DNA from: Bacteroidota bacterium
Lineage (GTDB): Bacteria; Bacteroidota; Bacteroidia; Bacteroidales; Lentimicrobiaceae
Length of the DNA stretch: 64,000 bases
Assembly: GCA_009773515.1 (NCBI GenBank)
Contig: WSXX01000014.1
Location: 1-64,000 of the forward strand
Reading direction: 5' to 3'
Shown here: positions 6,665 to 23,084 of the stretch, in pieces
Layout of the letters: each line of letters starts with the position of its first letter
How positions within the stretch are numbered: the stretch's first letter is position 1
Translations under genes and position numbers: made by a program
Notes under the pieces: model-generated
Databases searched by the model: none
The model's input: only the letters and a program-made list of their open reading frames with translations
Told to the model about the DNA's origin: nothing

Positions 6665-8218
6665 TTATCTTTTTCTGCTTCCACCGAAAAGAGAACCAAA
6701 CAATCCTCTGACCAGTGTGCGACCAAGTTCATTGCCAAGAGTTCGGGTAGCAGTTCGTCCAACCTGTTTGGTCAGCTCTGCAAAAATATCGGGATTTGCC
6801 CTTTTATTTGCTCTTTCAGCTCTTTCTTTTGCAGCTTGTGTTTTGGCGAGTGCAGCCTCCTCTTTTGCCCTTGAAAGTTTTTCTTTTGCATCTGCGGCTG
6901 CTTCATCAGCTTCTGCTTTCAGGCGGTTATTTTCATTTACCCTTTCCTGAAGAATTTCAAATGCCGATTCTCTGTCGAGCACTTTTTCATAAACTCCATA
7001 GACATCAGATTTCCGGATTATTCTTTCTCTTTCCTCACTTGTGATCGGACCAATCTGAGAAGCCGGGGGCAAAATCAGCGCGCGTTCAACCATCATTGGA
7101 ATTCCTTTGGCATCCAGAAATGATACCAGAGCCTCTCCTACGCCCAACTCGGTGATTGCGGCTTCAACATTAAGCTTTGGGTTTACCCTGAAGGTTGTTG
7201 CTGCAGCCTTAACTGCCTTCTGATCGCGGGGCGTAAATGCCCGTAACGCATGTTGAACCCTATTTCCCATTTGCCCGAGAACTGAATCAGGAATATCAAG
7301 CGGATTCTGCGTAACAAAATACACGCCCACCCCTTTGGAACGGATAAGCCGCACAACCTGCTCGATTTTATCAAGCAGAATTTTAGGTGCTTCATTAAAA
7401 AGCAAATGTGCTTCGTCAAAGAAAAAAACCAGTTTGGGCTTTTCTAGATCTCCGGCTTCGGGCAGTTCTTCGAAAAGTTCAGACAGCAGCCATAAGAGGA
7501 ATGTAGAATATATTCGGGGAGAATGCATCAGCTTATCGGCAGCAAGAAGATTCAATACTCCTTTTCCGTCGGAATCGGTTTGCATAAGATCATGGATATC
7601 AAAAGCAGGTTCGCCGAAAAAATGAGCCGCACCCTGTTGTTCAAGCACAAGCAAATTGCGCTGAATGGCTCCGACGCTGGCAGCAGAAATATTGCCATAT
7701 GACACTGTAAAGTTATTGCGGTTGTTTCCGATGTATTCAAGAAGTGAGGTCAGGTCTTTTAGATCGAGCAATAACAAGCCTGCATCGTCGGCAATTTTAA
7801 AAGCAAGGTTAAGCACACCTTCCTGTGTATCGTTCAGGTTTAGCAATCGCGACAACAGCAGAGGTCCCATTTCGCTTATGGTGGTTCGCATGGGATGTCC
7901 CTGCTCGCCAAAAACATCCCAGAAACATACCGGAAAGCCCCTGTTCTCATATCCCTGAAGTTGAAGCTTTTCAACCCTTTCAAGTATTTTTTGTCCTGGA
8001 ACTCCGGCTTTGCTGATTCCGGAAAGATCACCTTTTATATCGGTCATAAAAACCGGAACTCCCTGAAGGCTAAACGACTCAGCCAGCACCTGAAGCGTAA
8101 CGGTTTTTCCTGTTCCTGTGGCACCGGTTATTAATCCATGCCTGTTGGCCATCCGTGGAGTGATGTGCAATTCAATTTCTGATTTTGCTATGAATGTCTC
8201 TGCGCCTTTGAATGCCAT
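6665..8218 (-). CDS. HerA-like ATPase/helicase (DUF853 family)
   Basis: The product is a 517-residue P-loop ATPase. Walker A is [12 protein letters not shown] near residue 33 and Walker B is [41 protein letters not shown], read as two adjacent blocks, is the typical sensor region. After the ATPase core come an Ala/Glu/Lys-rich coiled coil (about residues 425-480) and a glycine-rich basic tail ([13 protein letters not shown]). This matches the DUF853 family related to HerA, presumed to act on DNA, although its physiological role is uncertain. The ATG at 8218 was preferred over the upstream in-frame start at 8287 because a -7 box (8240-8247) lies between them. Confidence 0.88.
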
Positions 8219-8239
8219 ATCAGTTAATTTTCGTTTCAG

Positions 8240-8247
8240 CAAATTTA
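8240..8247 (-). promoter_or_regulatory. -7 promoter box of the HerA-like gene (TAAATTTG, minus strand)
   Basis: The plus strand reads CAAATTTA, so the minus strand has TAAATTTG, a full match to TAnnTTTG 22 bases upstream of the ATG at 8218. It decides the start of that gene. Confidence 0.5.
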
Positions 8248-8339
8248 TAAAATTTGATGAGTTAATTCCTATTCGATTGGCATACAAATAAACAGATTTA
8301 ATAAATTTCTCTACTTTTACAGGATAATCTGAATTTATT

Positions 8340-9173: not shown

Positions 9174-9204
9174 GGGAAGAGGGAAAAGTGAAAAGTGAAT
9201 AGTG

Positions 9205-9556
9205 CACTATCTTTTATGCTGCCCTTTCAGGGCGCGGTTAGGTCTTGTTGGCTAGTTTTACCCAGGGCTCTGCCCATGGTTTTGACTCAGGGCGTTGCCC
9301 GTGAGTTGATCTTATGCTGCCCTTTCAGGGCGCGGATAGGCTCCAGGGCGTTGCCCGAGAGTTGAGGTATGTTGCCACTTCGTGATGTTATCTCAGGGCG
9401 TTGCCCGTGGGTTGAGGTATGTTGCCACTTCGTGGTGTAAAGGAAAGTTAAAAGCACTGAACTCCCAGGCTGAAGGCCTGGCATATCTTAACCCAAGGCA
9501 CCGCCTTGGGTTAACAGTGTAGAACGGCATCAGCGCCCTGAAAGGGCAGCATAATT
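9205..9556. repeat. REP-like palindromic repeat cluster, left of the HUH transposase
   Basis: This gene-free stretch is built from two palindromic modules. Module P has core GCCCTTTCAGGGC at 9221-9233 and 9319-9331, and inverted at 9535-9547. Module Q has core GGGCGTTGCCC at 9290-9300, 9346-9356 and 9396-9406, with the variant GGGCTCTGCCC at 9265-9275. Two Q copies form a 50-bp tandem (9345-9394, 9395-9444). Further hairpins lie at 9465-9481 (CCAGGC/GCCTGG) and 9488-9514 (a 12-bp perfect stem with a 3-base loop). Such arrays are typical of RAYT-associated REP sequences. Confidence 0.85.
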
Positions 9557-10045
9557 CTATGTCCAAAGGTAATTCTCATCGTAATCAATATCGTATTCCT
9601 TTAAAAAACGAATATATTCCTCTTTGAATGTTTCTGTTTTGTGATGTTCCTTTTGGTTTTCAATGTAGCGCTTTACAATCTTTACTATACTTTCACTCAC
9701 CGAGAAGCCTCCATAACCACCCTGCCAGACAAAAGTTTTATAATTAACTCCTTTAGTTTTAATCCAGCGGCTGCTATTTCGTTTTAACTCTTCCAAAAGG
9801 TCGGCCAGTGCTATGTTTTTTGACATGATACAAAGAATATGCACATGATCTTCAACTCCATTGATTTTTATTGGTACACAATTGTTTAATTTTAGAATTC
9901 CACCCAGATAGGCATACAATTCATTTTCGACATCAGCCTTTATCAGGTCTTGATTGTTTTTGGTATGAAAAACTATGTGGGTGTACAGTTTGGATAAGGA
10001 TTGTGACATAGTACATTGTTTTTATACTGCCCTTTCAGGGCGCTG
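9533..10045 (-). mobile_element. IS200/RAYT-like unit bounded by inverted palindromes
   Basis: The transposase gene at 9557-10009 is bracketed by the same palindrome in opposite orientation. CAGCGCCCTGAAAGGGCAGC begins at 9531 on the left. On the right is its near-perfect reverse complement, ACTGCCCTTTCAGGGCGCTG, from 10026. HUH transposases of this class recognise subterminal hairpins, so these are good candidates for the sites processed. True element ends and target-site preference cannot be fixed without an empty-site comparison. Confidence 0.6.
9557..10009 (-). CDS. IS200/IS605-family HUH transposase, REP-associated (RAYT-like)
   Basis: The 150-residue protein is a Y1 single-tyrosine transposase. 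The metal-binding HUH motif is the HVH of EDHVHILC, and the catalytic tyrosine is in RYIENQKEHH. The gene is complete and of normal length. There is no accompanying tnpB. It lies within a dense cluster of palindromic repeats and has inverted copies of one palindrome about ten bases beyond its stop and about twenty beyond its start. This is the arrangement expected for a RAYT that mobilises REP-like palindromes, rather than for a classic IS200 copy. It is likely functional as judged from the motifs alone. Confidence 0.88.
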   Translation of the reverse strand: MSQSLSKLYTHIVFHTKNNQDLIKADVENELYAYLGGILKLNNCVPIKINGVEDHVHILCIMSKNIALADLLEELKRNSSRWIKTKGVNYKTFVWQGGYGGFSVSESIVKIVKRYIENQKEHHKTETFKEEYIRFLKEYDIDYDENYLWT

Positions 10046-10303
10046 GTTTGACTTTTTCGATTATTATATACCAGGGGTGATTGCCCGGTGGTTCTTTGTA
10101 TGCTGCTTTTTGTGGCTTAAGTTATAAGTGTATTTAAGTTCAAAGATAATGATCTTTTTGATTTGCGAGTTAAGTTGAAGGCTGTTGTACATATATATGC
10201 TGCTCTTTCATTGCGTTATATCAAGGTGCTGTCACTAGGTATTTATAACCTCTGATTTACAAAACCTGATATTGAAAGAACCCCAGATTCAATTAATCCC
10301 ATT
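10010..10303. repeat. Right flank of the transposase: one palindrome and degraded repeat remnants
   Basis: GCCCTTTCAGGGC is intact at 10029-10041. Decayed pieces of the same family follow (GGGTGATTGCCC near 10076, and GCTGCTTTTTGTGGC and GCTGCTCTTTCATTGCG-like stretches to about 10215). I see no gene or clear terminator before the CHASE2 gene end at 10304. Confidence 0.6.
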
Positions 10304-11590
10304 TCAGAAATTATTATTTTCCCCCTTCTTTTTGAAAATATAATTTTTAAAAAAATCTATCAAGCCAAAGTAGCTCAACAGGATAAGGATATGCAAATAA
10401 TGATGAAAAAACAGCATTGAAACATAAACCAACAGAAGCAGTACTAAGTATATTTTTTTATCCCTGATCTGATGAAGAATTTTTGCCCAACGGCTTAAAC
10501 CAGGCTCTGACCTACTCTGGTAGCAAAGGGTATGGTATGAAACATAGAAAAATACAAGAAATAAGACTATTCTGTACCAGATTGATATAACATGATCGTT
10601 ATTTAATAAGGAGGCTGTAATGTTTGCCAGAATCACCGGACCCGAAATCAGCCCGGCCATTGAATGGTGAATGTCATACGCACCCTCAAAGTCGCCGATA
10701 ATTACCACTTGTTCATCTTTTAAAAAGTAGTCCTCAAACAATCCCAATTGGAAATAATTAAGACCTTCAACAAGGTCTGACTGCGAATATCTGAATTCAG
10801 GAATGAAAGTATTCAGCACCCATCTGCCATTGTGTGTGTAATAATTGATAAACCCAATTTCCTTTCTTTGTATTTTACTATTCGTTATCGCCTCCCAGGC
10901 AATCAATGGTATCTGCGGCATACCATCGTAGAGGATAAGCGTATATTTAAGAAACTGTATATTCATAAATGAAGATCGGTATTGAGAAAGCCCTGTGGTC
11001 CCTTTAAAAACCGGGTTAATCAGTTCCTTCTCAATATCGTTGTAAAAACCAGGCATTACAAGTTTATTGGCATCGGACAGTTTTCTGATCTCCTCCTGCA
11101 AAAGACTGTCTGCAGCAGCATCAGCCGAAGGACTTTCGAAAAATACATCACAGATGATAAACTTTATTTTATCCTTATTCTCATTCAGTATTCTGAGTTT
11201 TTCGGCCAACACGACACGGTCGGTGATTACGCTGTTTATGGTATTGTCATTATCGAAAGGAAGTAGTTCATTGTTTCTGGATGTATTGATAAACAGCATT
11301 TTATCATCAGATTCTAAAGCTGAAGAGCTTTGCAATACATATTCTTTAAAAAATGACCGCATGTTAAAATAGTCATTCATAAATTCAAAACCGTCCATAT
11401 AATTCACATGTCCAAGCCAGAGCAATGCGAGAATAATCATCCATATGGAATGCAGGGACATTAATATCGCTTTAAGCCATGTAATTCCGGGGAAAACGAA
11501 ATTCAACAACGAACGGATTCTTAGAAAGAACTTCTTTAATTTTCGAGATTGCTTCGGTGTTTTCTTTGATGAGCCAGTCTTCATTGTCAT
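10304..11590 (-). CDS. CHASE2-domain membrane sensor protein
   Basis: The 428-residue protein has one N-terminal membrane segment (about residues 40-60), a large extracytoplasmic region, and three C-terminal hydrophobic segments with a basic tail. The central region matches the CHASE2 sensor pattern by eye: IKFIICDVFFESPSAD, then KLVMPGF, and late EQVVIIGDF before the first C-terminal membrane helix. It lacks any fused kinase, cyclase or CHAT output domain. Its start (ATG at 11590, or 11584) lies four bases after the stop of the CHAT gene, so the two are almost certainly co-transcribed. I infer that it anchors or controls the secreted CHAT protein, but no interaction is shown by sequence. Confidence 0.8.
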   Translation of the reverse strand: MTMKTGSSKKTPKQSRKLKKFFLRIRSLLNFVFPGITWLKAILMSLHSIWMIILALLWLGHVNYMDGFEFMNDYFNMRSFFKEYVLQSSSALESDDKMLFINTSRNNELLPFDNDNTINSVITDRVVLAEKLRILNENKDKIKFIICDVFFESPSADAAADSLLQEEIRKLSDANKLVMPGFYNDIEKELINPVFKGTTGLSQYRSSFMNIQFLKYTLILYDGMPQIPLIAWEAITNSKIQRKEIGFINYYTHNGRWVLNTFIPEFRYSQSDLVEGLNYFQLGLFEDYFLKDEQVVIIGDFEGAYDIHHSMAGLISGPVILANITASLLNNDHVISIWYRIVLFLVFFYVSYHTLCYQSRSEPGLSRWAKILHQIRDKKIYLVLLLLVYVSMLFFHHYLHILILLSYFGLIDFFKNYIFKKKGENNNF

Positions 11591-11594
11591 GCAA

Positions 11595-14500
11595 TTAGCG
11601 GATAAATACAAAGCCTGCCCACAAAGAGGGTTGATTGACATACCGGTTTCTCATTTCCTGTTGCGCTTGTTGAAATGCTGTTTCAGGATTTTTCACTTTC
11701 ATAAGATTTTCATAAAACAATGTCATCAACTCCATGGTCTCAAAATCAGGCACTTCCCAGAGAGAAACGATGGTGCTGCTAACTCCAGCCATAAACATTG
11801 AACGTTGAAGACCAAAAACTCCTTCACTTCCTTTTATATCGCCCAGACCTGTTTCGCAGGCGGAGAGCACCATCAGGCTTGTGCCCGAAAGGTCAAGATT
11901 TGCCATTTCATAGGCGGTAAGTATTCCATCTTCTGCTCCAGCTGTCGATTCACCTTTCGCCCAGGTATTGTTTGCTCCGGCAAATAGCAAACCTGACCTC
12001 ATAAGCGGATTTTCAGTGTTTGTGTATGCCTGATTGGATTGACCTGCCAGAAAATTCTTTTGTTCATTACGCTGATCAGCTGCTGGAAAACTGAATCCAT
12101 GACTTGCTATATGGATAACCGAAGAAGAGTTTCCATTCATGACTTTTAAAGATTCTTCAGTCGCTTCCTGATCAATCAGCGTATTGAGCAGCATATTTTC
12201 GTCTGACATTATCCGGCTGATCTCCCGGGCTTCGGATTTGGTTCCGGGGAGGTAATCCCAGGCAGTTCCCCGGAGGTTTCTTTTTACTTCATTTTTTAAA
12301 ACAGCATCTTGTTTCTCAATTGAATACGATCTGGCCAGCTTGTTCAACGTTATAGTATCTGCATTATAATCGATGCCGCCATATATTGTTCCTGAATTTC
12401 CCTGAATGGAAACATTGCCGGTCAGTAAATTCCTTGTAGATGCCAGATTGGTCAGTTTGTATTGCTGCGATAATACCTGTCTTTTATGATTTGGAATTGC
12501 AGAAAAGGAGATCCTGTTCAGCAATCCAGACGGTGAATAGAATACTGTTTCAATGCCTTCCAGATGTTTTTCGAGAGGTTTCCAGATTTCATCATATAGG
12601 CTAGAATTTTCCAAGTTATAAATCTCATCAGGATGATTCTTGAGCAATTCTTCAAGCTTATTCCCGGTTGTGAGGAATATCATTTCAGGCCAAAGAAATT
12701 CTTTTCTCAGGATCAGAGCACAATAGTAAACCGAATCTGTTTCAATACATTTATCGATGTATTTAAAGCTCAGAAACTCAATCGCGGCCTGGTCGTGAGC
12801 AAGAGCATCGCGCACTCGGGTGAAAGGAATTTCTTCATTCATCATCAAATTACTATTCAAACTCCCCTCCTTTGCCAGCAGACTGATGCGTTGTTTTATT
12901 TGTTTCTGGAGGCCTGAAAATTCCAGCTCCAGCTTTTCTGGCTCAGCTTTACGCTGATCAGCAGGTTGGGTATAGAGTTTCTCAAGCTCAGCACGGATAT
13001 TCCGTTGCTGCTCTGTAAGTGCTGAAAGAATAGTATCATTTGCGCCGGAAACCGCATGCTGAAATTTCCTGGTTGAGTTCAGAAGCAGACCTTTAAGAAA
13101 AAGCTGATTGTTGTAGGTTTTACCGGCAAGTTCCGGGTTGCTGTGGCTGTTGCGCAGATAATTCGAGTTCAAATAATCAAAGAAGCGGTTGATATGGACA
13201 TTAATGTATGCCTCCATTTCATTTTCAGACCAATACAGCAGATTTTGGTCAACCATTGACACAACAGCTTCATTGCTTTCGATGGCCTCAGAAACAGATT
13301 CAGCAATGCTTCCATTTCCTTCGAGATACATGCTTCGGTTTATTTTCTGTGCCAAAAAATCAGGATGCAGTTCACTCTCAAGCTCCTGGTATTTTGCAAT
13401 GGCTGAAGTATTCCATTTCAGCGCTTCATTGAAATCGCATGTTTTGGAATACACCATTGAAAGGTTGCCCATAATGTTTGCTAATTCACGCCATTGGGTT
13501 AACCCTGATTTTTCAAAAATATCAATTGCCTCAAGGTATGTACTTGCCGAAGGAGAATATTCCTTCAGATACCAGTAAATTGTTGCCAGGGTACCCAATG
13601 TAGTCGCGTAATCAAGTTCTGCTATTCCTCCCCGGGGAGCTTTTTGCAATATTTGCTTATAGGTTGATTCAGCTTCTTTGTATTTCTGATGATATATTTG
13701 ACTCGTTCCCTGTATCACCATGTAATCGCGCATGGCTGATTCCGGAATGTTACCCGTCATCTTTAGTATATTCATTCCTTGTTCCGCAAGATCGCGGGCC
13801 TGAACCGGATTATACATCTGCATATATATCATTCCGAGGTCTATAAGTGATAATCCAACCCGCGCATCCGTTTCTGAATATAATTCCTTTTTCAGTTGAA
13901 TACATTCCAGCAGGTACTTCTCTGCCAGATCGTATTTGCCATCGTATTGATATAAATTGCTAAAACACTCAAGCTGTCCGGCATAGAATTCTTTGTCTAT
14001 TTCCTTGTATTTGCTGATAAAAGGCACCATTTTGTCAGCAACATAAGCCAACATCCGGAAGTCAAGTTTTTCAAGAAAGTATTCCAATAAATTGCCGTAG
14101 ATATCCAATACTGCTATATCATTCACTTGAATAGATTCCGTTTCAAATATTGACAAAAACAAGGGTATTGCTTCATCTTTGAAATCATCTTTGTACAACC
14201 TATTTGCCAGGGTAAAAACAATTTCCTGATACTCTTTGTTGGTATTCCCCAGTTTTGCTTTAATCAGCGGCAAGGATTCCATGTAAACATCCAGCGCCTC
14301 TTGCTTTCTCCCTGTATCCCAATACCCATCACCCAAATAGGCAAGTAAACCCATTCGTTCGTCCGGATTATTACTATCCAGTATTCCCAACTCCAGGTAC
14401 TTTTCTATATAGTAAACTGCTTCAGCAATCTTTTCAGCTTGCAGGTAACTGGTGAGAATTGCTTTCAAAATAAGGGCATAACTTCCGGCTTGGGAAGCAG

Positions 14501-15005
14501 GTAGGTCTTTATATACTTCAACTGATTTTCTGTACCAGATTTCAGCATCATGTGGATTATTCCAATTCTGGTAAAGGCTGCCCAGAAAAAAATACATATA
14601 CCCTGACCTTGGTACATTGCCCAATTTCTCAAGCATATGTGTGGTGGCCAGATAAAACTTTTCGGTGGTTTTAAAATCCTTATGGGTTTCGAGAAAGTAA
14701 TCCCCGATTCGTTCGAGGCAAAGTGAGGATTCTATTGAAATGTCGAGACTTACTTCAAGTTCAGTGTTCAGATATGCGAGTGTCTTTTCAATCGGCCAGT
14801 CACCGTCAAAGCGGGTGGTTTTCTTTTTTTGAATCCAATAATAAAGCGGTTCGCCATTTTTAAAATACATAGCATTTTTAAGTGTACCATTTGCATCTCG
14901 ATCAACATGCATTCCATCTCCGGCTGATTGGGCACGAACTGCCAGAGGCAATGATTCCATAAAAAGCGGCAGGAAAAGCAGGAGCAGATGAAATCTAATT
15001 TTCAT
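11595..15005 (-). CDS. Secreted TPR-CHAT protein (caspase-like protease, predicted)
   Basis: The 1136-residue protein begins with a Sec signal peptide (MKIRFHLLLLFLPLF... ending near RAQ). About 500 residues of tetratricopeptide-like helical repeats follow (roughly residues 70-590), then a CHAT domain from about 730 to the end. The caspase-type dyad is visible: His969 in IHIASHGFSF and Cys1050 in VLSACETGLGD. GVFGLQRSMFMAGVSS, typical of CHAT, comes next. It should act as a cysteine protease outside the cytoplasm. The ATG at 15005 was chosen because it gives the signal peptide and starts 14 bases after the upstream stop. The middle gene of a three-gene operon. Confidence 0.9.
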   Translation of the reverse strand: MKIRFHLLLLFLPLFMESLPLAVRAQSAGDGMHVDRDANGTLKNAMYFKNGEPLYYWIQKKKTTRFDGDWPIEKTLAYLNTELEVSLDISIESSLCLERIGDYFLETHKDFKTTEKFYLATTHMLEKLGNVPRSGYMYFFLGSLYQNWNNPHDAEIWYRKSVEVYKDLPASQAGSYALILKAILTSYLQAEKIAEAVYYIEKYLELGILDSNNPDERMGLLAYLGDGYWDTGRKQEALDVYMESLPLIKAKLGNTNKEYQEIVFTLANRLYKDDFKDEAIPLFLSIFETESIQVNDIAVLDIYGNLLEYFLEKLDFRMLAYVADKMVPFISKYKEIDKEFYAGQLECFSNLYQYDGKYDLAEKYLLECIQLKKELYSETDARVGLSLIDLGMIYMQMYNPVQARDLAEQGMNILKMTGNIPESAMRDYMVIQGTSQIYHQKYKEAESTYKQILQKAPRGGIAELDYATTLGTLATIYWYLKEYSPSASTYLEAIDIFEKSGLTQWRELANIMGNLSMVYSKTCDFNEALKWNTSAIAKYQELESELHPDFLAQKINRSMYLEGNGSIAESVSEAIESNEAVVSMVDQNLLYWSENEMEAYINVHINRFFDYLNSNYLRNSHSNPELAGKTYNNQLFLKGLLLNSTRKFQHAVSGANDTILSALTEQQRNIRAELEKLYTQPADQRKAEPEKLELEFSGLQKQIKQRISLLAKEGSLNSNLMMNEEIPFTRVRDALAHDQAAIEFLSFKYIDKCIETDSVYYCALILRKEFLWPEMIFLTTGNKLEELLKNHPDEIYNLENSSLYDEIWKPLEKHLEGIETVFYSPSGLLNRISFSAIPNHKRQVLSQQYKLTNLASTRNLLTGNVSIQGNSGTIYGGIDYNADTITLNKLARSYSIEKQDAVLKNEVKRNLRGTAWDYLPGTKSEAREISRIMSDENMLLNTLIDQEATEESLKVMNGNSSSVIHIASHGFSFPAADQRNEQKNFLAGQSNQAYTNTENPLMRSGLLFAGANNTWAKGESTAGAEDGILTAYEMANLDLSGTSLMVLSACETGLGDIKGSEGVFGLQRSMFMAGVSSTIVSLWEVPDFETMELMTLFYENLMKVKNPETAFQQAQQEMRNRYVNQPSLWAGFVFIR

Positions 15006-15018
15006 AATTATATGAATA

Positions 15019-15888
15019 TCAGCGTGAAAATATATACTTAATCCTTGTTTCGAGCCATTGCATTGCTTCTTCTTCATTCAACATGCCAAACTCCCTTTGA
15101 ATCTGACGACTGCTAATCAAGTCGGGCATGATCATGTTAAATACCGTATTGGTATCCATTCTAATTCCATCGTGCTTAACCTGTGCATAGTACTGAATGA
15201 TGTCATTCAAGAAATACAGAGAAAAAGGCTTAATGTCCGGAAGAATAGTTTTTTCCCGTGCTGATGAATCATCTATCAGGTAGAGACTTATTTTTTCGAT
15301 TTCGAAAGAGTTGACCCTAACAGTTCCTTCTGGAATGTTGATGCTAAATAGTGAGTTGCTGGTTAGGAAAAGTGTATCGTTACGGCCAATTTCCTTTAGA
15401 ATTTCCATTCCATTCCACTGATATCCGGCAATCAGTCTTTCATTTTGGCCAAAACTATAATCTTTAAGACCGATGCAGATCAAAGTATCTTCAGCCAAAA
15501 GGGTGAGCACCCCGTTTTCGGGTGAAAATGCCCGTTTGAATTCGAAATCACTTCTTATGAATTTAATTCCCCTGGTGGCAAGCATAAGATCTCTGCCTTG
15601 TTTATTGGTGCGGGCGGAGAGCAGTACAATTTTCCGTCGTTCAACATCGAGCAGATGCACTTCATCGGAATTGGCAGTAAAAGAGAAATACGATAATTCT
15701 TTGTTCATATTTTCCTTTATATCCATATCGTGGAGCATAATTCTATCTCCCCGCTGTAACGCCCGTTCTTTATAATTTACCTTTCCTTTAACAAGGACTA
15801 CCTCATAAGGAATGCCGGCAAATCCAGCCGTTGATGTTAAAACAGAGGTATATATCAAAACAGCAAACAGAATAAAACATGTTTTCAT
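15019..15888 (-). CDS. Secreted protein, FecR-like N-terminal region (predicted)
   Basis: The 289-residue product has an N-terminal signal peptide (MKTCFILFAVLIYTSVLTS) and no other membrane segment. Residues 28-60 (VVLVKGKVNYKE...LQRGDRI) resemble the small beta-domain at the start of FecR-type proteins. The rest is not recognised. It is the first gene of the leftward operon with the TPR-CHAT (14 bases downstream) and CHASE2 genes, so it is probably a periplasmic partner: regulator, substrate or scaffold. The FecR resemblance is by eye and weak. No cysteine dyad or enzyme motif was seen. The upstream 350 bases contain repeats, not a recognisable -7 box. Confidence 0.7.
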   Translation of the reverse strand: MKTCFILFAVLIYTSVLTSTAGFAGIPYEVVLVKGKVNYKERALQRGDRIMLHDMDIKENMNKELSYFSFTANSDEVHLLDVERRKIVLLSARTNKQGRDLMLATRGIKFIRSDFEFKRAFSPENGVLTLLAEDTLICIGLKDYSFGQNERLIAGYQWNGMEILKEIGRNDTLFLTSNSLFSINIPEGTVRVNSFEIEKISLYLIDDSSAREKTILPDIKPFSLYFLNDIIQYYAQVKHDGIRMDTNTVFNMIMPDLISSRQIQREFGMLNEEEAMQWLETRIKYIFSR

Positions 15889-16210
15889 AATGTATGTGCT
15901 TAACTATAAGCTAAGTTATGAATATTATTGTTGTTTGATGTAAATATCCTGAAATATTTTTCTATCTAAATTCCTGAAGCCAGAAAGTTGTCCAGAGGGG
16001 GACTTTTTATGCTACTCTATCAGGGCACGGATTGTTTTTTTATTTTCTATACCCAGGGCTTTTCCTATGGGTTGAGATATGCTGCCACTTTGTGGTGTTA
16101 TCCCTGGGCGTTGCCCGTGGGTTGAGGTATACTGCAACTTCGTGGAGTTATCTCAGGATATTGGCCATGAGTTAATTAATGTTGGCGCAATGCTGCAACA
16201 TAAAAGAAAA
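15889..16210. repeat. Second REP-like repeat cluster, upstream of the CHAT operon
   Basis: No gene is seen here. Repeats of the family at 9.2-10.2 kb recur from about 16010. There is a decayed P module near 16010-16030, then GGGCTTTTCCTATGGGTTGAG from 16055 and an exact Q core GGGCGTTGCCC at 16106-16116. The Q core is followed by the same GTGGGTTGAGGTAT and (C/A)ACTTCGTGG text seen at 9400-9440, and further decayed copies run to about 16200. The 15889-15990 part is AT-rich and should hold the CHAT operon promoter, but no clean TAnnTTTG was found on the minus strand. Confidence 0.75.
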
Positions 16211-16231: not shown

Positions 16232-16244
16232 TACGCTTTATTTT

Positions 16245-16292
16245 GTGACCCCGACAGGATTCAAACCTGTAACCTTCTGATCCGTAGTCAGA
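16245..16292. repeat. attL: displaced 3' part of tRNA-Arg (48-bp direct repeat)
   Basis: These 48 bases are identical to 23256-23303, which lie inside the intact tRNA-Arg gene. They cover the anticodon arm to the discriminator base and then diverge. This is the classic scar of a tyrosine-recombinase element integrated into a tRNA 3' half, with this copy as the displaced fragment. Confidence 0.9.
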
Positions 16293-16308
16293 AATTTATC
16301 TATTTTGT

Positions 16309-16320
16309 TATCAATTGATA
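16309..16320. promoter_or_regulatory. 12-bp palindrome next to attL (TATCAATTGATA)
   Basis: TATCAATTGATA is a perfect palindrome 16 bases inside attL. Its half TATCAATT recurs at 16385-16392 and 16429-16436 around the integrase promoter. It may be a binding site for recombination proteins; this is inference. Confidence 0.35.
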
Positions 16321-16391
16321 TATTACAAATGTACTGTATTACAATGATATAGCTATTGTTGTTTATAATTTATTTATAGATTTTTATCAAT

Positions 16392-16415
16392 TTTGTTTTA
16401 TAAGTTGTTTTATAA
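16392..16415. promoter_or_regulatory. Left arm-type site: paired GTTTTATAA repeats
   Basis: A 24-base block contains two GTTTTATAA copies 12 bases apart. It is repeated exactly at 23184-23207, near the other end of the element. It lies 3 bases upstream of the integrase -7 box. Its position and pairing suit an integrase arm-type binding site that would also repress the int promoter. Confidence 0.6.
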
Positions 16416-16418
16416 GTG

Positions 16419-16426
16419 TATATTTG
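16419..16426 (+). promoter_or_regulatory. -7 promoter box of the integrase gene (TATATTTG)
   Basis: TATATTTG matches TAnnTTTG, lies 19 bases before the integrase ATG at 16446, and directly adjoins the arm-like repeats. It argues against the in-frame GTG at 16416, which overlaps the box. Confidence 0.5.
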
Positions 16427-16445
16427 TATATCAATTTTAAAGCAA

Positions 16446-17786
16446 ATGGAAACAACCAGACCCACCACAGCTATTACATTGGACACATTACACCCCAAAG
16501 TAGATGGAACCCTGCCATTGAAAGTTAGGGTAATATCAAACCGTAAAGCCAGATATTATGCTGTCAGCATTGAACTGGAGGACAAAACAATTATTGACAG
16601 CCTGACAAAAGACGATTTAACCAAAGCAAAAGCCCCCAAACCGAGAGGTAAATTAAAAGAAATTGCTTTGAAGTTGGCAGCTAAGGAACAGACTGCAAAT
16701 GATATATTGGCAGAAATAGAGGACAATTTCAGCTTTGAATTATTTAAGGAACGATTTACAGGTAAGAAACAAGCAGCCGACCCCGGAAACGTGTTTATGT
16801 GTTACAATGATACAATCAAAGACCTGACAGAAAATAAACAATATGGTACTGCCAGTAGTTACGATTTATCATTGAAGAGCCTGAAAGCATTCATTGAAAG
16901 TAAAACAGGCAATGAACCCAAAAAGCTATATTTCAAAGATATTACCCCTAAATGGCTGAATAATTATGAAACATTTATGACCAGTGATAAAGCCACCCTC
17001 CTACCCGATGGAAGCATAAAAGTAAAAGACGGCCTGACCCGGACAACAGTAGGTATTTATTTAAGACCTCTCAGAGCAATTTTTAACACTGCCATAGATA
17101 AAAAAGAAATTGAGGCAGCCTTATATCCGTTTAGTAGATCCGCAAAAGACAAAAGCAAATACAGGATACCAAAGGGTAAAAAGGTAAAAAAAGCACTGGC
17201 AAAAGATCAACTTAAATTATTGTTGAACGCTGAAGCTGCCACAATCGAACAAGAGAAAGCCCGGGATTTTTGGTTTTTCAGTTACACCTGCAATGGCATG
17301 AATATTAAAGATATTTGTTTGCTCAGGAATAAGGATTTAGAGCCTGACAGCTTAAGTTTTGGAAGGGCAAAGACCAGCTTAACAGACGAAAATCAAAAGC
17401 CTGTTATTGTTGTTTTAACCGATTATGCAAAAAGTATTATTGAAAAATACAGGAACCAGGATACAAGCCCGAAAGCATACCTTTTCCCGATACTCAGCCC
17501 CAAAGACAATGGACAGGAAATAAGAAGGAAAGTGCATTTATTTACCCGGTTTATAAATACACACATAAAAAAACTGGCCGTATCCGTTGGGGTAACCAGT
17601 GACATAAGCAGTTATTTTGCCCGGCATTCATTTGCTACATTGGCAATTCAGGGAGGTCAAAGCATTGAGTATGTAAGTGAAGCACTAAGCCACACTAATA
17701 TAAAAACAACCCGGGATTATTTCGCTGGCTTTGCGGATCCTGCAAAAAAGAAAATACAAGAATCTTTGATGAACTTTGATAATTAA
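16446..17786 (+). CDS. Tyrosine recombinase (site-specific integrase) of the tRNA-Arg element
   Basis: The 446-residue integrase has an N-terminal arm-binding-like region, a SAM-like core-binding domain (about residues 115-220) and a C-terminal catalytic domain. Catalytic residues visible are Lys in GRAKTS, Arg393 in YFARHSFAT, His in LSHTNIKTTR and the nucleophile Tyr425 in TTRDYFAG. The position where Arg I normally sits reads TCNGMNIKDI, with Asn283 where many Bacteroidota integrases have Arg. The ATG at 16446 was preferred because the longer frame would start inside the promoter box. It lies 153 bases from attL and should integrate and excise the element at tRNA-Arg. Confidence 0.92.
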   Translation: METTRPTTAITLDTLHPKVDGTLPLKVRVISNRKARYYAVSIELEDKTIIDSLTKDDLTKAKAPKPRGKLKEIALKLAAKEQTANDILAEIEDNFSFELFKERFTGKKQAADPGNVFMCYNDTIKDLTENKQYGTASSYDLSLKSLKAFIESKTGNEPKKLYFKDITPKWLNNYETFMTSDKATLLPDGSIKVKDGLTRTTVGIYLRPLRAIFNTAIDKKEIEAALYPFSRSAKDKSKYRIPKGKKVKKALAKDQLKLLLNAEAATIEQEKARDFWFFSYTCNGMNIKDICLLRNKDLEPDSLSFGRAKTSLTDENQKPVIVVLTDYAKSIIEKYRNQDTSPKAYLFPILSPKDNGQEIRRKVHLFTRFINTHIKKLAVSVGVTSDISSYFARHSFATLAIQGGQSIEYVSEALSHTNIKTTRDYFAGFADPAKKKIQESLMNFDN

Positions 17787-17812
17787 AAAAAAAATAAGTT
17801 TATGTTTTCATT

Positions 17813-17837
17813 TTCACTTTTTCACTAATTTCACTAA
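17813..17837. repeat. Left iteron-like array (three TTCACT units)
   Basis: TTCACT occurs at 17813, 17821 and 17830 (spacings 8 and 9). The same three-unit array in inverse orientation, with the same spacings, lies at 23085-23107. The two arrays bracket all element genes except the integrase. Confidence 0.5.
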
Positions 17838-17847
17838 TTAAAATAAA

Positions 17848-17878
17848 GCCCCGGAGGTTTGCAGACCATAGCCGGGGC
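17848..17878 (+). other. Stem-loop in the leader of the unknown element gene
   Basis: GCCCCGG (17848-17854) pairs with CCGGGGC (17872-17878), with inner GGT/ACC pairing possible, just 15 bases before the ATG at 17894. No T-run follows, so it is more likely a leader structure than a terminator for the integrase gene. Confidence 0.4.
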
Positions 17879-17893
17879 GTAAAACTTGAAGAG

Positions 17894-18643
17894 ATGGACA
17901 AAGATAAAGAAGTTGTTGTTAAAGTTGAAGATTACCTTCCTTTATACGGTTTATTATTAGCAGATAAATACGGAATTTCAGTTGATGGGAAAAATAATAT
18001 TTCCGTTGCTGAATTGTTTCAGTATCCGGAAATTGAATTAAACAAAATACATATAGAATCACTCAATCATTTTGATCGTATGTCTTTTCAGACATTTATT
18101 AAAAACAAGAAAAATGAACAGGAAGTTTTAAAGTTTGTCCGGGAGTTATTTGATGAATTTAAAACTAACGGGGGTAATCCTTTGGAATGGATTTATTCAA
18201 CCCTTTCAGATTTAGAACTCAATTCTTATAATTATCCTGCATTGCTTCGGGGCGTTATACAAACAAAGTTAATGGAGTGGGCTGATTATTACGAAAAGAT
18301 CAAAGCCCCTGTTAAAAAATTACCAGCAAAAACCTTTCCTGATTACATATTGCACCCACAAAAAAAACGTATTGCAGAAGCGTTAAAAGACACATTCACA
18401 GGCGAAAAAGGCAAAACAATTAGATTAATGATTGAGGTATTAAAAAATCAGCCTCAGCCATTGATCACATACGATAACAGACAGCGCCAAAAGATATTTG
18501 ATGCAATGAAATTGTTTTTCAATTGGGATATTGGCAGCAAGCAAAGTATTTTTGATTATAAACGATTCAATGATGAAACAGACTACAAAGCTATTGAAGT
18601 CAAAGTATTATATATTTTGAAAAGTATTAAGATCAATAGATAA
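17894..18643 (+). CDS. Unknown element protein, 249 aa
   Basis: I do not recognise this protein. It is 249 residues, soluble, without signal peptide or membrane segment, and rich in Lys, Glu and aromatic residues. The C-terminal half (ILHPQKKRIAEALKD, then KGKTIRLMIEVLKN, then KIFDAMKLFFNW) is predicted helical. This has the look of conserved proteins found next to integrases and primases in Bacteroidota islands, but I cannot name a family. It lies between the integrase and the HTH gene, preceded by an iteron-like array and a stem-loop. It is the only sizeable element gene without a replication or recombination signature, so it could be cargo, a replication initiator or a regulator. Confidence 0.75.
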   Translation: MDKDKEVVVKVEDYLPLYGLLLADKYGISVDGKNNISVAELFQYPEIELNKIHIESLNHFDRMSFQTFIKNKKNEQEVLKFVRELFDEFKTNGGNPLEWIYSTLSDLELNSYNYPALLRGVIQTKLMEWADYYEKIKAPVKKLPAKTFPDYILHPQKKRIAEALKDTFTGEKGKTIRLMIEVLKNQPQPLITYDNRQRQKIFDAMKLFFNWDIGSKQSIFDYKRFNDETDYKAIEVKVLYILKSIKINR

Positions 18644-18657
18644 AGACCTTTCAAAAC

Positions 18658-18687
18658 TTGTTTATTCTTGTTAACAAGTTTAAACAA
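18658..18687. promoter_or_regulatory. 30-bp dyad operator or origin candidate
   Basis: TTGTTTA (18658-18664) and TAAACAA (18681-18687) share a centre with the perfect inner palindrome CTTGTTAACAAG (18667-18678). Only two positions per arm are mismatched. It lies in an AT-rich gap 34 bases upstream of a -7 box, so an operator bound by an element protein, or a replication origin site, is likely. Confidence 0.55.
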
Positions 18688-18720
18688 CTAAATATCAATA
18701 GGTTAGCTATACTTATGCCG

Positions 18721-18728
18721 TATCTTTG
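18721..18728 (+). promoter_or_regulatory. -7 promoter box of the element replication operon (TATCTTTG)
   Basis: TATCTTTG is a full match to TAnnTTTG and ends five bases before the HTH gene ATG at 18734, giving a leaderless or nearly leaderless transcript that would continue through the helicase and downstream genes. Confidence 0.55.
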
Positions 18729-18733
18729 TCCGT

Positions 18734-19021
18734 ATGAAAACAACGGATATCGATACTTTAACTTTTGATCAGCTCCCAGCAGCTATTTCATTATTGATCC
18801 GGGAGGTTAACAGCCTTAAAATTGCTTTGCAGTTAGCACCCCCGGAACAAGCCGACCAGCTTTTAACAGTTGATCAGGCCGCTGCATTCCTTTCACTTGC
18901 TAAGCCCACTATTTATGCAATGTTAAGCCGGGGCGAACTGCCAAACCTGAAAAGGGGTAAACGTGTCTATTTTCAAAAATCCGATTTATTAAGGTACCTC
19001 AAAGAAGGTAAAAGGGGGTAA
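18734..19021 (+). CDS. HTH (excisionase/MerR-type HTH_17) DNA-binding protein
   Basis: This 95-residue protein has an N-terminal helical stretch and a C-terminal winged-HTH of the excisionase family. The segment TVDQAAAFLSLAKPTIYAML is followed by RGELPNLKRGKRVYFQKSD, the typical recognition helix and wing. Small proteins like this act as recombination directionality factors or as repressors. A 30-bp dyad lies upstream and a promoter box almost touches the start codon, so autoregulation is plausible. The stop is four bases before the helicase start, indicating tight coupling. Confidence 0.88.
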   Translation: MKTTDIDTLTFDQLPAAISLLIREVNSLKIALQLAPPEQADQLLTVDQAAAFLSLAKPTIYAMLSRGELPNLKRGKRVYFQKSDLLRYLKEGKRG

Positions 19022-19025
19022 CAAT

Positions 19026-20564
19026 ATGGAAATGGATATAGAAAAAACCACCCAGTACGAAATTACCCCAACTTTTGAACCCCTGCAAAGCCCTGAAACC
19101 CTTCAGGATATTAACCCCTTCAGCAAGCGGGAAAAGGAAGCCCCAGCAACCGAAAGCACAATTTTAGGGCAATTAATTGAATTGGTTCAGCCGTTGGACT
19201 TTCATTTGTTGGCATTTCCTGAATTAAGTAAATTAAGTAAAGAAGATCGGGAAAAACAGGACAAAAAAGTTAAAGAAAGGCACCTGTTAATATTGTCAGT
19301 TGAAAATATTCAGCAACTGGCAATACTTTATAATTGGGGGCTTTGTAAAAACGGGGGCTTCATATATTTATATAATGGTTGCTATTGGGTAAAGCTTGAC
19401 AAAGAAACCCTTCAGAATTTTTTAGGTAAGGTTGCCGAAAAACAAGGCATACAAAAGTTTTCAGCCCGGCATTATGAATTTAGGGAAAAACTATTAAAAC
19501 AATTCTTTGCAACCGGATTTTTAAAAACCCCGGATCAGCCCGAAAACAGAGTTTTAATAAACCTGATAAACGGCACCTTTGAAATTACCCCAACCGGCAC
19601 CCGGTTAAGACCGTTTAATTCTGAAGATTTTCTGACTTATCAGTTACCTTTTGAGTACAACCCGATAGCCCGGGCACCAATGTTTGAAGCGTTTTTAAAT
19701 AAGGTTTTGCCGGATAAAGATTTACAAAAAATACTATGTGAATTTTTGGGCTACATATTTATAAAAACCAATTTCCTGAAACTTGAAAAAGCCTTACTTC
19801 TTTACGGCACCGGGGCAAATGGAAAAAGCGTTGTTTATGACATTGTAAACGCTTTGTTAGGGGCAATGAATGTAACAAGTTATTCACTTGAAAACCTGAC
19901 AGATAAGGCCGGATATTATCGGGCAATGATTGCCGGTAAATTGGTAAACTACGCTTCAGAAATAAACGGCAAACTTGAAACTTCATTCTTTAAACAACTT
20001 GCTTCAGGTGAACCGGTTGAAGCCCGTTTACCTTATATGGAGCCGTTTATTATTTACGATTACGCAAAGCTAATATTCAACCTGAACGAATTACCCCGGG
20101 AGGTTGAACACACAAACGCTTATTTCAGGCGGTTGTTAATCATTCCTTTTGAAGTTACGATTTCTGAAGCCGATCAGGATAAACAACTGGCAAAGAAAAT
20201 AATTGAAACCGAACTTTCAGGGGTTTTTAATTGGGTTTTGGAAGGCCTGAAACGGTTACTTCAGAATAAGAAATTCACAGAAAGCCAAGCCACAGACAAA
20301 GCCCGGGAGGCCTATAAATTGGAAAGTGATAGCGTTGCATTATTCATAAATGAAATGTGTTACAAACCCAGTACAAAAAGACCGGTTTTGCTCAAAGAAC
20401 TTTACAGGGAATACAGGGCTTATTGTTTGGAAGATGGAAACCAACCCGTAAAAAAGCAAAACTTTAAAAAGCGTTTACAGGGGCAAGGCATTGTTATTGA
20501 GATACTTAACACAGGTAATAACGTAATGATTTCAAACGATGGAACACCATTACATATTGGATAA
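19026..20564 (+). CDS. P4-type phage/plasmid primase-helicase, SF3 helicase part
   Basis: The 512-residue protein has a D5_N-like N-terminal region (about residues 90-200) and an SF3 helicase core. Walker A is YGTGANGKS (Gly261-Ser268). The Walker B/sensor region is KLIFNLNELPREV, and the arginine-finger region is YFRRLLIIPFEV. A small DNA-binding-like C-terminal region follows. Such proteins unwind DNA at the replication origin of satellites, phages and plasmids. No Toprim or AEP primase active site is seen, so primase function probably lies in the next gene, which overlaps by 26 bases. An alternative start at M3 (19032) is possible. Confidence 0.9.
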   Translation: MEMDIEKTTQYEITPTFEPLQSPETLQDINPFSKREKEAPATESTILGQLIELVQPLDFHLLAFPELSKLSKEDREKQDKKVKERHLLILSVENIQQLAILYNWGLCKNGGFIYLYNGCYWVKLDKETLQNFLGKVAEKQGIQKFSARHYEFREKLLKQFFATGFLKTPDQPENRVLINLINGTFEITPTGTRLRPFNSEDFLTYQLPFEYNPIARAPMFEAFLNKVLPDKDLQKILCEFLGYIFIKTNFLKLEKALLLYGTGANGKSVVYDIVNALLGAMNVTSYSLENLTDKAGYYRAMIAGKLVNYASEINGKLETSFFKQLASGEPVEARLPYMEPFIIYDYAKLIFNLNELPREVEHTNAYFRRLLIIPFEVTISEADQDKQLAKKIIETELSGVFNWVLEGLKRLLQNKKFTESQATDKAREAYKLESDSVALFINEMCYKPSTKRPVLLKELYREYRAYCLEDGNQPVKKQNFKKRLQGQGIVIEILNTGNNVMISNDGTPLHIG

Positions 20565-21951
20565 AGGAGCAAAAAAACACATTTGCCCGGATTGCGGAAA
20601 AGGGCGGTTTGTCCGGTATATTGATACCGAAACCGGGCAATATTTGCCGGACAATTACGGGCGTTGCGACCGGGAAAGTAATTGCGGTTACCACAAGCGG
20701 CCACCACTTGAAACCCGTTGTTTCTTTGTCCCTTTCATTCAATTAATAGACTATTCAGAAAAAGCCTTTCAGGTTGTTACCGATGGGGGAACTTATTATT
20801 TACCCAAAACCCAGGTTAATGAAGTTATTGAAAATGGTTGTTACGTTACTGAATTTTATCTGAATAATAACGACAAAGCACCCGTTCACCTTTCAACTGA
20901 TTACCGGTATTATTCTGAAACCGGCACCATACAAATAAAGGACACCGAACCAAAGCCCCGGCCAAAGGTTCAACCCGTTTATTTCATTCCTGAAACCATA
21001 CTTAATGCAACCCTGAAAGGTTACCAAAATAATACTTTCATACAAAACCTTTTACAATGGTACCCGGCTGAAGATATTGAAAAAGTAATCAGTCTTTACA
21101 GGTTGGGAACAATTACCCGGGGTTACCGATCGGGGGCGGTTACGTTTCCATTTATTGACTTTGCCGGGTATGTTCGCACAATTCAGGCGAAGCAATTCAA
21201 TGAAACAAACCATACCAAAAGCACCGATTTTATTCATTCAATTATTGAACGGCACCATAGCGAAAAGGGCGAACCGTTACCCGGTTGGCTTCAGGATTAC
21301 AAACAGAATGAAAGGTTTGTTTCCTGTTTATTTGGCGAACACCTTTTAAACAGGTACCCAGTTAACCCCGTTGCATTGGTTGAAGCCCCGAAAACGGCCG
21401 TTATTGGTACCCTTTGTTATGGGTTACCCGACACCCCCGACCAGTTATTATGGTTGGCCGTTTACAATAAAAGCAGTTTAACACTTGAAAAGTGCAAAGC
21501 ATTGAAAGGCCGAAAGGTTGTTTTATACCCGGATTTAAACGCTTTTAATGAATGGAGCCAAAAGGCAAAGGATATAAACGCAAAATTGCCCGGATCCCGG
21601 TTTGTTGTTTCTGATATTTTGGAACGTAACGCAAGCGAAACCGACAAAAGCAAAGGTTTGGATTTAGCTGATTACCTTATCCGATTTGATTACAAACAAT
21701 TTAGGAAGGTACAAACCTATACTGAACCGGTAACACAACCACAGGCCGAAATATGGCAGATCATTGAAAGGCAATTTACAGGCCGTTTAATTCCTGATGT
21801 TTGGTTAAGCCCGGATAAAACTTCAGATGAAATTTATTATGATTTGGTTGTATTATCTGCTGATTGCCTGATTAATTACGGTTTGGATATTACCCCGGAT
21901 CAGTATTACAATGCTTTGAAAAGCAGAGAATCACAGTTATTAAACAATTAA
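20539..21951 (+). CDS. Zn-ribbon/Toprim-like primase (DUF6371-type)
   Basis: The 470-residue protein begins with a four-cysteine zinc ribbon (Cys16, Cys19, Cys43, Cys49), like the DNA-template-binding module of DnaG/gp4 primases. In the middle, VALVEAPKTAVIG (Glu282) and VVLYPDLNAF (Asp332, Asn334) match the glutamate and acidic motifs of a Toprim fold. This combination is usually annotated DUF6371 in Bacteroidota islands. It overlaps the helicase gene by 26 bases in another frame, so the two are translationally coupled and likely form a split primase-helicase. The long C-terminal region after residue 390 has no recognised motif. Confidence 0.85.
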   Translation: MEHHYILDKGAKKHICPDCGKGRFVRYIDTETGQYLPDNYGRCDRESNCGYHKRPPLETRCFFVPFIQLIDYSEKAFQVVTDGGTYYLPKTQVNEVIENGCYVTEFYLNNNDKAPVHLSTDYRYYSETGTIQIKDTEPKPRPKVQPVYFIPETILNATLKGYQNNTFIQNLLQWYPAEDIEKVISLYRLGTITRGYRSGAVTFPFIDFAGYVRTIQAKQFNETNHTKSTDFIHSIIERHHSEKGEPLPGWLQDYKQNERFVSCLFGEHLLNRYPVNPVALVEAPKTAVIGTLCYGLPDTPDQLLWLAVYNKSSLTLEKCKALKGRKVVLYPDLNAFNEWSQKAKDINAKLPGSRFVVSDILERNASETDKSKGLDLADYLIRFDYKQFRKVQTYTEPVTQPQAEIWQIIERQFTGRLIPDVWLSPDKTSDEIYYDLVVLSADCLINYGLDITPDQYYNALKSRESQLLNN

Positions 21952-21962
21952 ATTTTGATAAA

Positions 21963-22196
21963 ATGCCAAAGAAAGGAACTATAAACAACCCAAACGGGAG
22001 GCCGAAAGGATCAACAAATAAAAGCACCGATGAACTTCGCACACTTTTACAAACCTTCATTGATACCAATATTGAAACAATGCAGGCTGATTATGAAGCA
22101 TTGGAACCAAAAGACCGGTTAAACTTCATTGAACGTTTACTCAAACACGTTTTACCGGCACCCCTTCAGGAACTTGAAAAATTGACTGATGAATAA
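21963..22196 (+). CDS. Small element protein with NPNGRPKGS motif (DUF5681-like)
   Basis: The 77-residue protein starts with the basic segment NNPNGRPKGSTNK. This is typical of DUF5681 and similar small proteins encoded beside phage and island replication or packaging genes, followed by two acidic helices. It may bind DNA, but its function is unknown. It begins 11 bases after the primase stop and belongs to the same operon. A terminase-small-subunit role is conceivable for this motif, yet no large subunit is present. Confidence 0.75.
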   Translation: MPKKGTINNPNGRPKGSTNKSTDELRTLLQTFIDTNIETMQADYEALEPKDRLNFIERLLKHVLPAPLQELEKLTDE

Positions 22197-22227
22197 CTGG
22201 ATTTATTAATTCAAAAACTCAAAAGCC

Positions 22228-22419
22228 ATGATAAGTAAAAAACAGAAAATTGAAACGGTAAAAAAACTTATATCCGGGGAGGTTGAACATGAACCGAAAG
22301 TTTACAGAGTAATAGAGCGAAACGGAATAAAAACCTGTTCAGATCCCGATTACCCCGACAAGATAAGGCCACAGGATATTGTATTTCATATTGAAGTAAT
22401 ACAGCCGAACCATGAATAA
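22228..22419 (+). CDS. Small element protein, paralogue A
   Basis: I do not recognise this 63-residue protein. It opens with KKQKIETVKKLISGE, similar in pattern to the start of the next ORF (KRERIRIIRDLSAG), followed in both by a P.KV...I...NG segment. That suggests a tandem duplication. It overlaps the next gene by eight bases. No cysteines form a metal site and there is no membrane segment. Confidence 0.65.
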   Translation: MISKKQKIETVKKLISGEVEHEPKVYRVIERNGIKTCSDPDYPDKIRPQDIVFHIEVIQPNHE

Positions 22420-22681
22420 GAGAGAGAGAATCCGAATTATCCGGGACTTATCAGCCGGGAGCATGATTGAGCCGATAAAGGTTTGCTACATTGAAGCGAA
22501 AAACGGTAACGACCTGATAATAAAAGGCAATTATACACCGGATCAAATTAAGCTTATTGAATCGGGAAAGGTTAAAACAATTGAAGACTTTTCCGGAGTA
22601 TCAACAGAAATGCTCAAACGTATTGAATCCGGTTTTAAGCCGAAAGTTTATTTAAAAATACTGGCAATTTTGCCGGCCTAA
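22412..22681 (+). CDS. Small element protein, paralogue B
   Basis: This 89-residue protein shares the N-terminal pattern of the preceding 63-residue ORF and adds a C-terminal helical part (YTPDQIKLIESGK, then SGVSTEMLKRIESG). The function is unknown. It overlaps the preceding ORF by eight bases and shares its codon habits, which supports both being translated. Confidence 0.65.
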   Translation: MNKRERIRIIRDLSAGSMIEPIKVCYIEAKNGNDLIIKGNYTPDQIKLIESGKVKTIEDFSGVSTEMLKRIESGFKPKVYLKILAILPA

Positions 22682-22698
22682 CAATTAAAAACAATATC

Positions 22699-22995
22699 AT
22701 GATTGAAAAGAGAACGATGAACCAGATCATTGAAGCCACAATTTTAAATGTAGCTTCAACAAAACCGAACAGAAAAGCAACTGTTCAAACGGTTTTAAAC
22801 GAAATTCCAAAAATACGTTTAGGGCTAAAGCTGGAAGGTACAAACCTGATTGTTGATACCTTTTACGGTATTGAAGCCGAAACAGACTTTCAGAACAAAC
22901 TTCAGGAGGTTATTAACACCCATTCCACAACACACGAAAAAGATGGAAACGGGCATAGGATCCTGATTGTTGACCTTTTGAAGCCAAGAGTTTAA
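22699..22995 (+). CDS. Small element protein, 98 aa
   Basis: I do not recognise this 98-residue protein. It is mixed alpha/beta in appearance, with no signal peptide or membrane segment. It is the last gene of the rightward element operon, 17 bases after the previous stop, and is followed by a strong terminator. Base composition and codon use match its element neighbours. Confidence 0.65.
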   Translation: MIEKRTMNQIIEATILNVASTKPNRKATVQTVLNEIPKIRLGLKLEGTNLIVDTFYGIEAETDFQNKLQEVINTHSTTHEKDGNGHRILIVDLLKPRV

Positions 22996-23036
22996 GTTAT
23001 TCCGGGGGTATTCCATATCTATCCCCGGCCTTTTGC

Positions 23037-23074: not shown

Positions 23075-23084
23075 ATGCTTAAAA

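Follow-up and report, generated by a model that had tools for sequence, protein, structure and literature searches.

The 64,000-nucleotide stretch analysed here, referred to below as the window (positions 1 to 64,000 of contig WSXX01000014.1, GenBank assembly GCA_009773515.1, from a Bacteroidota bacterium of the Lentimicrobiaceae), carries a three-gene operon that probably encodes a protease-based signalling unit outside the cytoplasm. All three genes lie on the minus strand and run from 15888 to 10304: P0001, an exported FecR-like partner protein of 289 amino acids (15019-15888); P0002, an exported TPR-CHAT protein of 1136 amino acids (11595-15005); and P0003, a CHASE2 membrane protein of 428 amino acids (10304-11590). 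The intergenic gaps are 13 and 4 bases, so that the three leftward genes of an original prediction, made by reading the DNA alone, are found as described. P0001 and P0002 each have one hydrophobic N-terminal segment by hydropathy, kept in orthologues from two families, which bears out the signal peptides that the same prediction had assigned to them. The predicted Sec signal peptide of P0002 covers residues 1-26, ending in AVRAQ (14928-15005, minus strand), and is likewise marked by hydropathy and conserved in orthologues.

The domain profile and catalytic dyad of P0002 argue strongly for a CHAT protease, with proteolysis as its predicted activity. The CHAT domain (PF12770), also recovered in a genome-wide search, scores 196.1 bits in Pfam against a cut-off of 24 (E=1.1e-57) over residues 802-1135 (11601-12602, minus strand), and the TPRs are also above their Pfam cut-off. 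The dyad of His969 (codon at 12099-12101, minus strand) and Cys1050 (codon at 11856-11858, minus strand), originally described as intact, has both residues in place, and an alignment of ten CHASE2-linked CHAT proteins shows no variation at either position. Peptidase_C14 has no match anywhere in the genome from which the window comes, so the window protease is not of the orthocaspase or metacaspase type; in the loci of relatives, C14 occupies the position of CHAT.

P0003 is a stand-alone CHASE2 protein. Its own Pfam match is marginal (PF05226, 27.6 bits against a cut-off of 26.3), and the relatives used in its family profile, A1, score up to 92 bits for CHASE2. A six-frame PF05226 search of the window genome did not list P0003 because it lies near the cut-off, and own-family profiles were therefore used. 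The AlphaFold2 (AF2) model is confident (predicted local distance difference test score (pLDDT) 85.2, predicted template modelling score (pTM) 0.84) and shows a long helix (residues 38-59), an alpha/beta domain, and then helices at 337-355, 367-395, and 401-423, giving four membrane helices; hydropathy marks the N-terminal helix and the C-terminal membrane region. Neither Pfam nor the model reveals a kinase, cyclase, or other cytoplasmic output domain, and the chain stops about five residues past the last helix. The CHASE2 protein without enzymatic output that had been predicted is thus upheld, its domain match just over the cut-off being supported by the relatives and by the confident fold. 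Comparison of the model with solved structures gave none below E 0.001 in Foldseek and none at Z 5 or more in VIA-align (best 4.3), which does not show that the fold is new. A search for P0003 relatives in plasmids gave no match.

P0001 can be divided, from its AF2 model and hydropathy, into a signal peptide, an N-terminal beta domain, a low-confidence linker, and a C-terminal region, and its family recurs beside CHASE2. The FecR-like label given to it in the original prediction could not be substantiated by profile: neither Pfam (E up to 1) nor NCBIfam returned a FecR or other credible match for P0001, and none of its 36 relatives matched PF04773 (FecR, E up to 0.1) among the matches listed. 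Foldseek comparison of the P0001 model with the PDB gave none below E 0.001. A profile of the wider FecR-like family (A3) matched CHASE2-linked FecR proteins weakly, with a probability of 45% across 58 columns, where column-shuffled controls reached no more than 0.12%; the profile of the window's own subfamily (A5) reached 0.2% probability, and a profile comparison with a small FecR set found nothing. The Bacteroidia FecR-like proteins may be very diverged relatives of FecR, and the name is kept as FecR-like because the profile comparison fails for the window's own subfamily. No extracytoplasmic function (ECF) sigma factor or TonB receptor is found among the flanking open reading frames (ORFs) of the operon. 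Genuine FecR matches occur within about 4 kb of an output-domain CHASE2 gene in three of five genomes checked from other classes of the phylum; farther afield, a LysM-FecR gene adjoins a CHASE2 kinase gene in Cupriavidus, and an annotated FecR gene adjoins a cyclase-linked CHASE2 gene in Paroceanicella. Three loci from other classes of the phylum (L213, L214, and L215) have an operon encoding a FecR protein, an exported protein of 786-915 amino acids resembling an outer-membrane barrel, and a CHASE2 protein of 720-745 amino acids.

A single position in P0001 stands out. Arg106 (codon at 15571-15573, minus strand) is the only invariant column across the alignment of the 16-member P0001 subfamily, and it sits, in a [T/S]R[G/S/A] context, in the linker (residues 95-141) that is modelled below pLDDT 50. 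Because an aligner can draw an arginine into register in a gapped region, the shuffle test scored the pattern [TSV]R[GSA] anywhere in the linker window and not per column. The pattern is present in 15 of 16 members (shuffled mean 2.7, with 0 of 5000 shuffles reaching 15) and, once near-duplicates are removed, in 12 of 13 (shuffled mean 2.2). A second large FecR-like subfamily carries G-x-V-x-R-[small], with the arginine in 29 of 30 members. Small residues after the cleavage point suit caspase-type enzymes. Arg106 is a candidate cleavage or docking site, and the conserved pattern leads to the prediction that it is the cut site of the exported caspase-like protease. One report describes bacterial orthocaspases as cleaving after basic residues (PMC6426788).

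The same gene grouping recurs in relatives. Profile A1 detected stand-alone CHASE2 relatives in 43 of 395 Bacteroidia genomes and in 23 of 393 genomes of the order, and the neighbourhoods of these loci were read with own-built profiles, C14 or CHAT being confirmed by Pfam in the representatives tested. A FecR-like gene lies within three genes of stand-alone CHASE2 at 57 of 73 Bacteroidia loci, and a caspase-fold gene (CHAT or C14) within four genes at 27 of 73; where more than 2.5 kb was available on both sides (65 loci), the counts are 53 and 25. Within the module, conservation is highest for its core, the CHASE2/FecR-like pair, and C14 caspases are at least as common as CHAT at CHASE2 loci. 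Nearly every CHASE2-linked protease starts with a signal peptide as judged by hydropathy. All C14 and CHAT genes were also counted in 22 Bacteroidales genomes with 25 CHASE2 loci: CHAT or C14 lies within 3 kb at 14 of the 25, against 0.33 expected from each genome's own gene number, and within 6 kb at 17, against 0.58 expected. The formal probability of this linkage, about 1e-21, is overstated, same-genus loci being non-independent; the 14 loci with a protease gene within 3 kb come from nine families. Three genomes of the Lentimicrobium group have two CHAT genes and no C14 gene each, with one of the two CHAT genes adjoining CHASE2, and in another genome (G1104) the sole C14 gene and the sole CHAT gene each adjoin a CHASE2 gene. 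The neighbourhood of CHAT and CHASE2 genes that had been noted in one genome therefore recurs in others far above chance; the two genes are not rare neighbours, both domains are matched by profile, and the signal peptides are conserved, which leaves the FecR label as the part of the original description that found no match.

Gene order varies around this linkage. The window's order of FecR-like, CHAT, and CHASE2 is shared by two loci of the Lentimicrobium group (L001 in G013 and L038 in G017) and by one from another family (L163 in G814), the last having 54% identity to the window for CHASE2 and 42% for each of the FecR-like and CHAT proteins. The CHASE2 gene of G013 (L001 4633-6663) is broken after about 216 residues and followed by a transposase-like ORF, and its 3' part opens another contig. 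Other orders are CHASE2-FecR-CHAT (L121) and CHAT-CHASE2-FecR (L172) and, with C14, C14-CHASE2-FecR (L164, L165, and L170), CHASE2-C14-FecR (L176, L177, and L179), and CHASE2-FecR-C14 (L167). The distribution is patchy among close relatives, with a P0003 relative in 5 of 60 genomes, and phylum-wide PF05226 matches are mostly CHASE2 proteins of about 730 residues that are not of the stand-alone type. FecR-like genes also stand directly beside C14 (L208 6501-8844; L210 5980-9016) or CHAT (L212 7579-12698) where no CHASE2 was found, a two-gene form. The FecR-like protein is linked to both other parts, since it pairs with CHASE2 and, without CHASE2, adjoins C14 or CHAT. At two loci (L096 9167-10141 and L097 9012-9947) an exported glucosaminidase with LysM is encoded just behind CHASE2 (Pfam 5.3e-38 in L096), hinting at a cell-wall link.

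Exchange of the protease is seen even among the closest relatives of P0003. The window's CHASE2 tree clade has six rows and a support of 100; four members are CHAT-linked, and in a fifth (L167) a WD40-C14 protease replaces CHAT. The sixth member, L173, has the end of a subtilase gene (L173 4755-5117; Peptidase_S8, 7.9e-20) after its FecR-like gene, at the contig edge, and subtilase is a possible third protease type of the module. In G1107, CHASE2 (5.8e-24) and C14 (1.4e-12) are found in a single 1307-residue frame, P0004. Its junction, which falls after the CHASE2 helices and before the protease part, is RRAKTTACSIILALATFPADA and reads like a signal peptide; as a fifth hydrophobic segment following four helices, it would place the protease part of P0004 outside. 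Genomes related to G1107 have CHASE2 and C14 as separate genes, and their C14 protein has its own signal peptide.

The operon occupies an old, chromosomal site: at L038 it lies next to tRNA-Arg(acg) and two small genes, and these same neighbours are present in the window on the far side of a 7-kb integrative element. This element (16238-23303, 7.0 kb) has genes for a tyrosine recombinase (16416-17786), a helix-turn-helix protein, and a primase-like protein, is flanked by 55-nt direct repeats (95%) of the tRNA-Arg(acg) 3' end, and is absent from the L038 locus. On the other side of the operon are a small IS200/RAYT-like transposase ORF (9557-10009, minus strand) and a HerA/DUF853-like ATPase gene (6665-8287) that matches the PADLOC mad8 and HerA models (6.8e-19) and is probably a generic relative. 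Many short repeats with GCCCTGAAAGGGC and CCCACGGGCAACGCCC, resembling repetitive extragenic palindromic elements, are found at 9180-10100, around the transposase ORF, and at 16050-16160. A PADLOC scan of the operon's neighbours gave no Cas gene or clear defence gene, in line with the earlier remark that no defence gene lay nearby, and the window has no CRISPR RNA family at the Rfam gathering score, arrays not having been otherwise searched for. CRISPR and defence readings of the operon were rejected on these grounds.

Because the same parts recur together in many relatives with the protease type swapped, the trio is probably a protease-based signalling unit outside the cytoplasm. The most probable account, at slightly better than even, is of a signalling unit in the envelope: the exported caspase-like protease would be under the control of CHASE2, and the FecR-like protein would serve the protease as substrate or regulator, perhaps being cut after Arg106. 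P0003 would be an inner-membrane protein whose sensor domain faces the periplasm and which has no cytoplasmic output; P0001 and P0002 would be exported to the same side as that domain, and we infer that the three form a physical complex. CHASE2, probably together with the FecR-like protein, would detect a signal from the envelope or from outside and would activate the protease on the outer face of the inner membrane; the TPR array would provide the interaction surface. The most likely local substrate would be P0001, cut after Arg106 between its N-terminal beta domain and C-terminal part. The output of the operon seems to stay outside, unlike that of CHASE2 proteins with a cytoplasmic output, which signal inward. 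The envelope protease under CHASE2 control that had been proposed from the window is favoured by the recurrent linkage, the protease signal peptides, and the CHASE2-C14 fusion, with the FecR label set aside and with CHAT as one protease type among those used. A wider version, in which output-less CHASE2 proteins across Bacteroidota activate exported and interchangeable CHAT or C14 proteases that cut FecR-like proteins at the linker arginine, all in the periplasm, is possible and would be a more tentative generalization.

Several points weigh against this envelope signalling unit. At about 63% of Bacteroidia CHASE2 loci, neither CHAT nor C14 is found within four genes, which means that a protease encoded nearby is not obligatory. 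The AF2 model of P0001 is poor overall (pTM 0.37) and beyond about residue 92, the fusion is one frame in one draft genome, and signal-peptide and membrane-helix calls were made from hydropathy and conservation and not with a dedicated predictor. The conserved arginine is present also in FecR-like proteins at loci without a protease gene, and it may serve docking or folding instead.

The greater conservation of the CHASE2/FecR-like pairing (57/73) than of the protease (27/73) would also suit an account in which these two proteins sense together and pass the signal inward to a cytoplasmic partner encoded elsewhere, the protease acting only as a modifier by which the pair is reset or matured. 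Inward signalling is the known use, since FecR proteins of other classes pair with cyclase- or kinase-fused CHASE2 (PMC5192318). However, P0003 ends just past its last membrane helix, no regulator is consistently adjacent to CHASE2 loci, and FecR-like genes are also paired with CHAT or C14 where CHASE2 is absent; we consider this account unlikely. An envelope-stress or cell-suicide unit, in which the protease, on release, breaks down a large number of envelope proteins and thereby causes death or remodelling of the cell while the FecR-like protein acts as inhibitor, has precedent in that a role in bacterial cell death is widely proposed for caspase-fold proteases and cyanobacterial CHASE2-metacaspase fusions have been so read (PMC7475262, PMC3501461); the patchy distribution (5 of 60 close genomes) would fit a dispensable trait. 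It is made improbable by the lack of a clear adjacent defence or toxin gene and by the stable chromosomal site beside tRNA-Arg, common to another species. The CHAT protein could also be a scaffold, co-located through shared envelope expression and not through a joint mechanism: both the CHAT and the C14 proteins of these loci have several domains and are exported, neighbouring genes can stay together through co-expression alone, and at L096, L097, and L099 the CHAT and FecR-like genes are encoded on opposite strands. The invariance of the dyad in 10 of 10 aligned proteins, the linkage kept through reshuffled gene orders, the exchange of protease type, and the one fusion render it quite improbable.

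Most work on bacterial caspase relatives has treated them as cytoplasmic enzymes of defence or cell death, and little is known of the signals they respond to or the substrates they cut. With a sensor, an exported protease, a candidate substrate, and a candidate cut site encoded side by side, the control and target of a bacterial caspase-like protease become directly testable. For CHASE2, few of whose ligands are known, the findings also suggest a standing partner, as an exported FecR-like protein accompanies it even where CHASE2 has no output domain.

Parts of this arrangement have been described in other systems. The BiofilmReg operon of Burkholderia encodes a LysM-FecR protein and a CHASE2 histidine kinase (PMC5192318) and resembles the window operon in that an exported FecR-domain protein is encoded beside a CHASE2 membrane receptor, a pair also found in Cupriavidus; its CHASE2 protein, however, has PAS and kinase domains, a cytoplasmic response regulator is present, there is no protease, and P0001 is without a FecR match. 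In magnetotactic bacteria, mtxA clusters with a CHASE2 adenylate cyclase gene (PMC4439547; PDB 4z29), so that a gene for a signal-peptide partner adjoins CHASE2 in both cases, whereas the mtxA cluster has a cyclase output and no protease. Two FecR-like relatives weakly match MtxA_C (best E 0.0049) and the family profile reaches E 0.84 against the MtxA N-terminus, a similarity too weak for homology to be claimed. The cyanobacterial CHASE2-metacaspase fusion of Trichodesmium (PMC2853523, PMC3501461) joins CHASE2 and a caspase-fold protease in one polypeptide, but its metacaspase is N-terminal, predicted to be cytoplasmic, and C14 rather than CHAT, and no FecR-like partner is described. The TPR-CHAT protein of type III-E CRISPR (Csx29, Craspase), which responds to a sensor by making a single cut in one defined partner protein, Csx30 (PMC10028731), shares with P0002 the TPR array, CHAT protease, and His-Cys dyad; it is cytoplasmic and RNA-activated, whereas P0002 has a signal peptide and no Cas gene was found nearby. 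The likeness to the FecR anti-sigma regulators of Bacteroidota is a weak similarity at the domain start, seen for the wider FecR-like family only, and the window operon differs in having no FecR match and no adjacent ECF sigma factor or TonB receptor. Among open PubMed Central (PMC) papers, none contained both 'CHASE2' and 'CHAT domain', and a module of CHASE2, a FecR-like protein, and an exported caspase-fold protease was not found. FecR-CHASE2 pairs, the mtxA-CHASE2 cluster, and the CHASE2-metacaspase fusion are already known, and what would be new is the exported three-part module.

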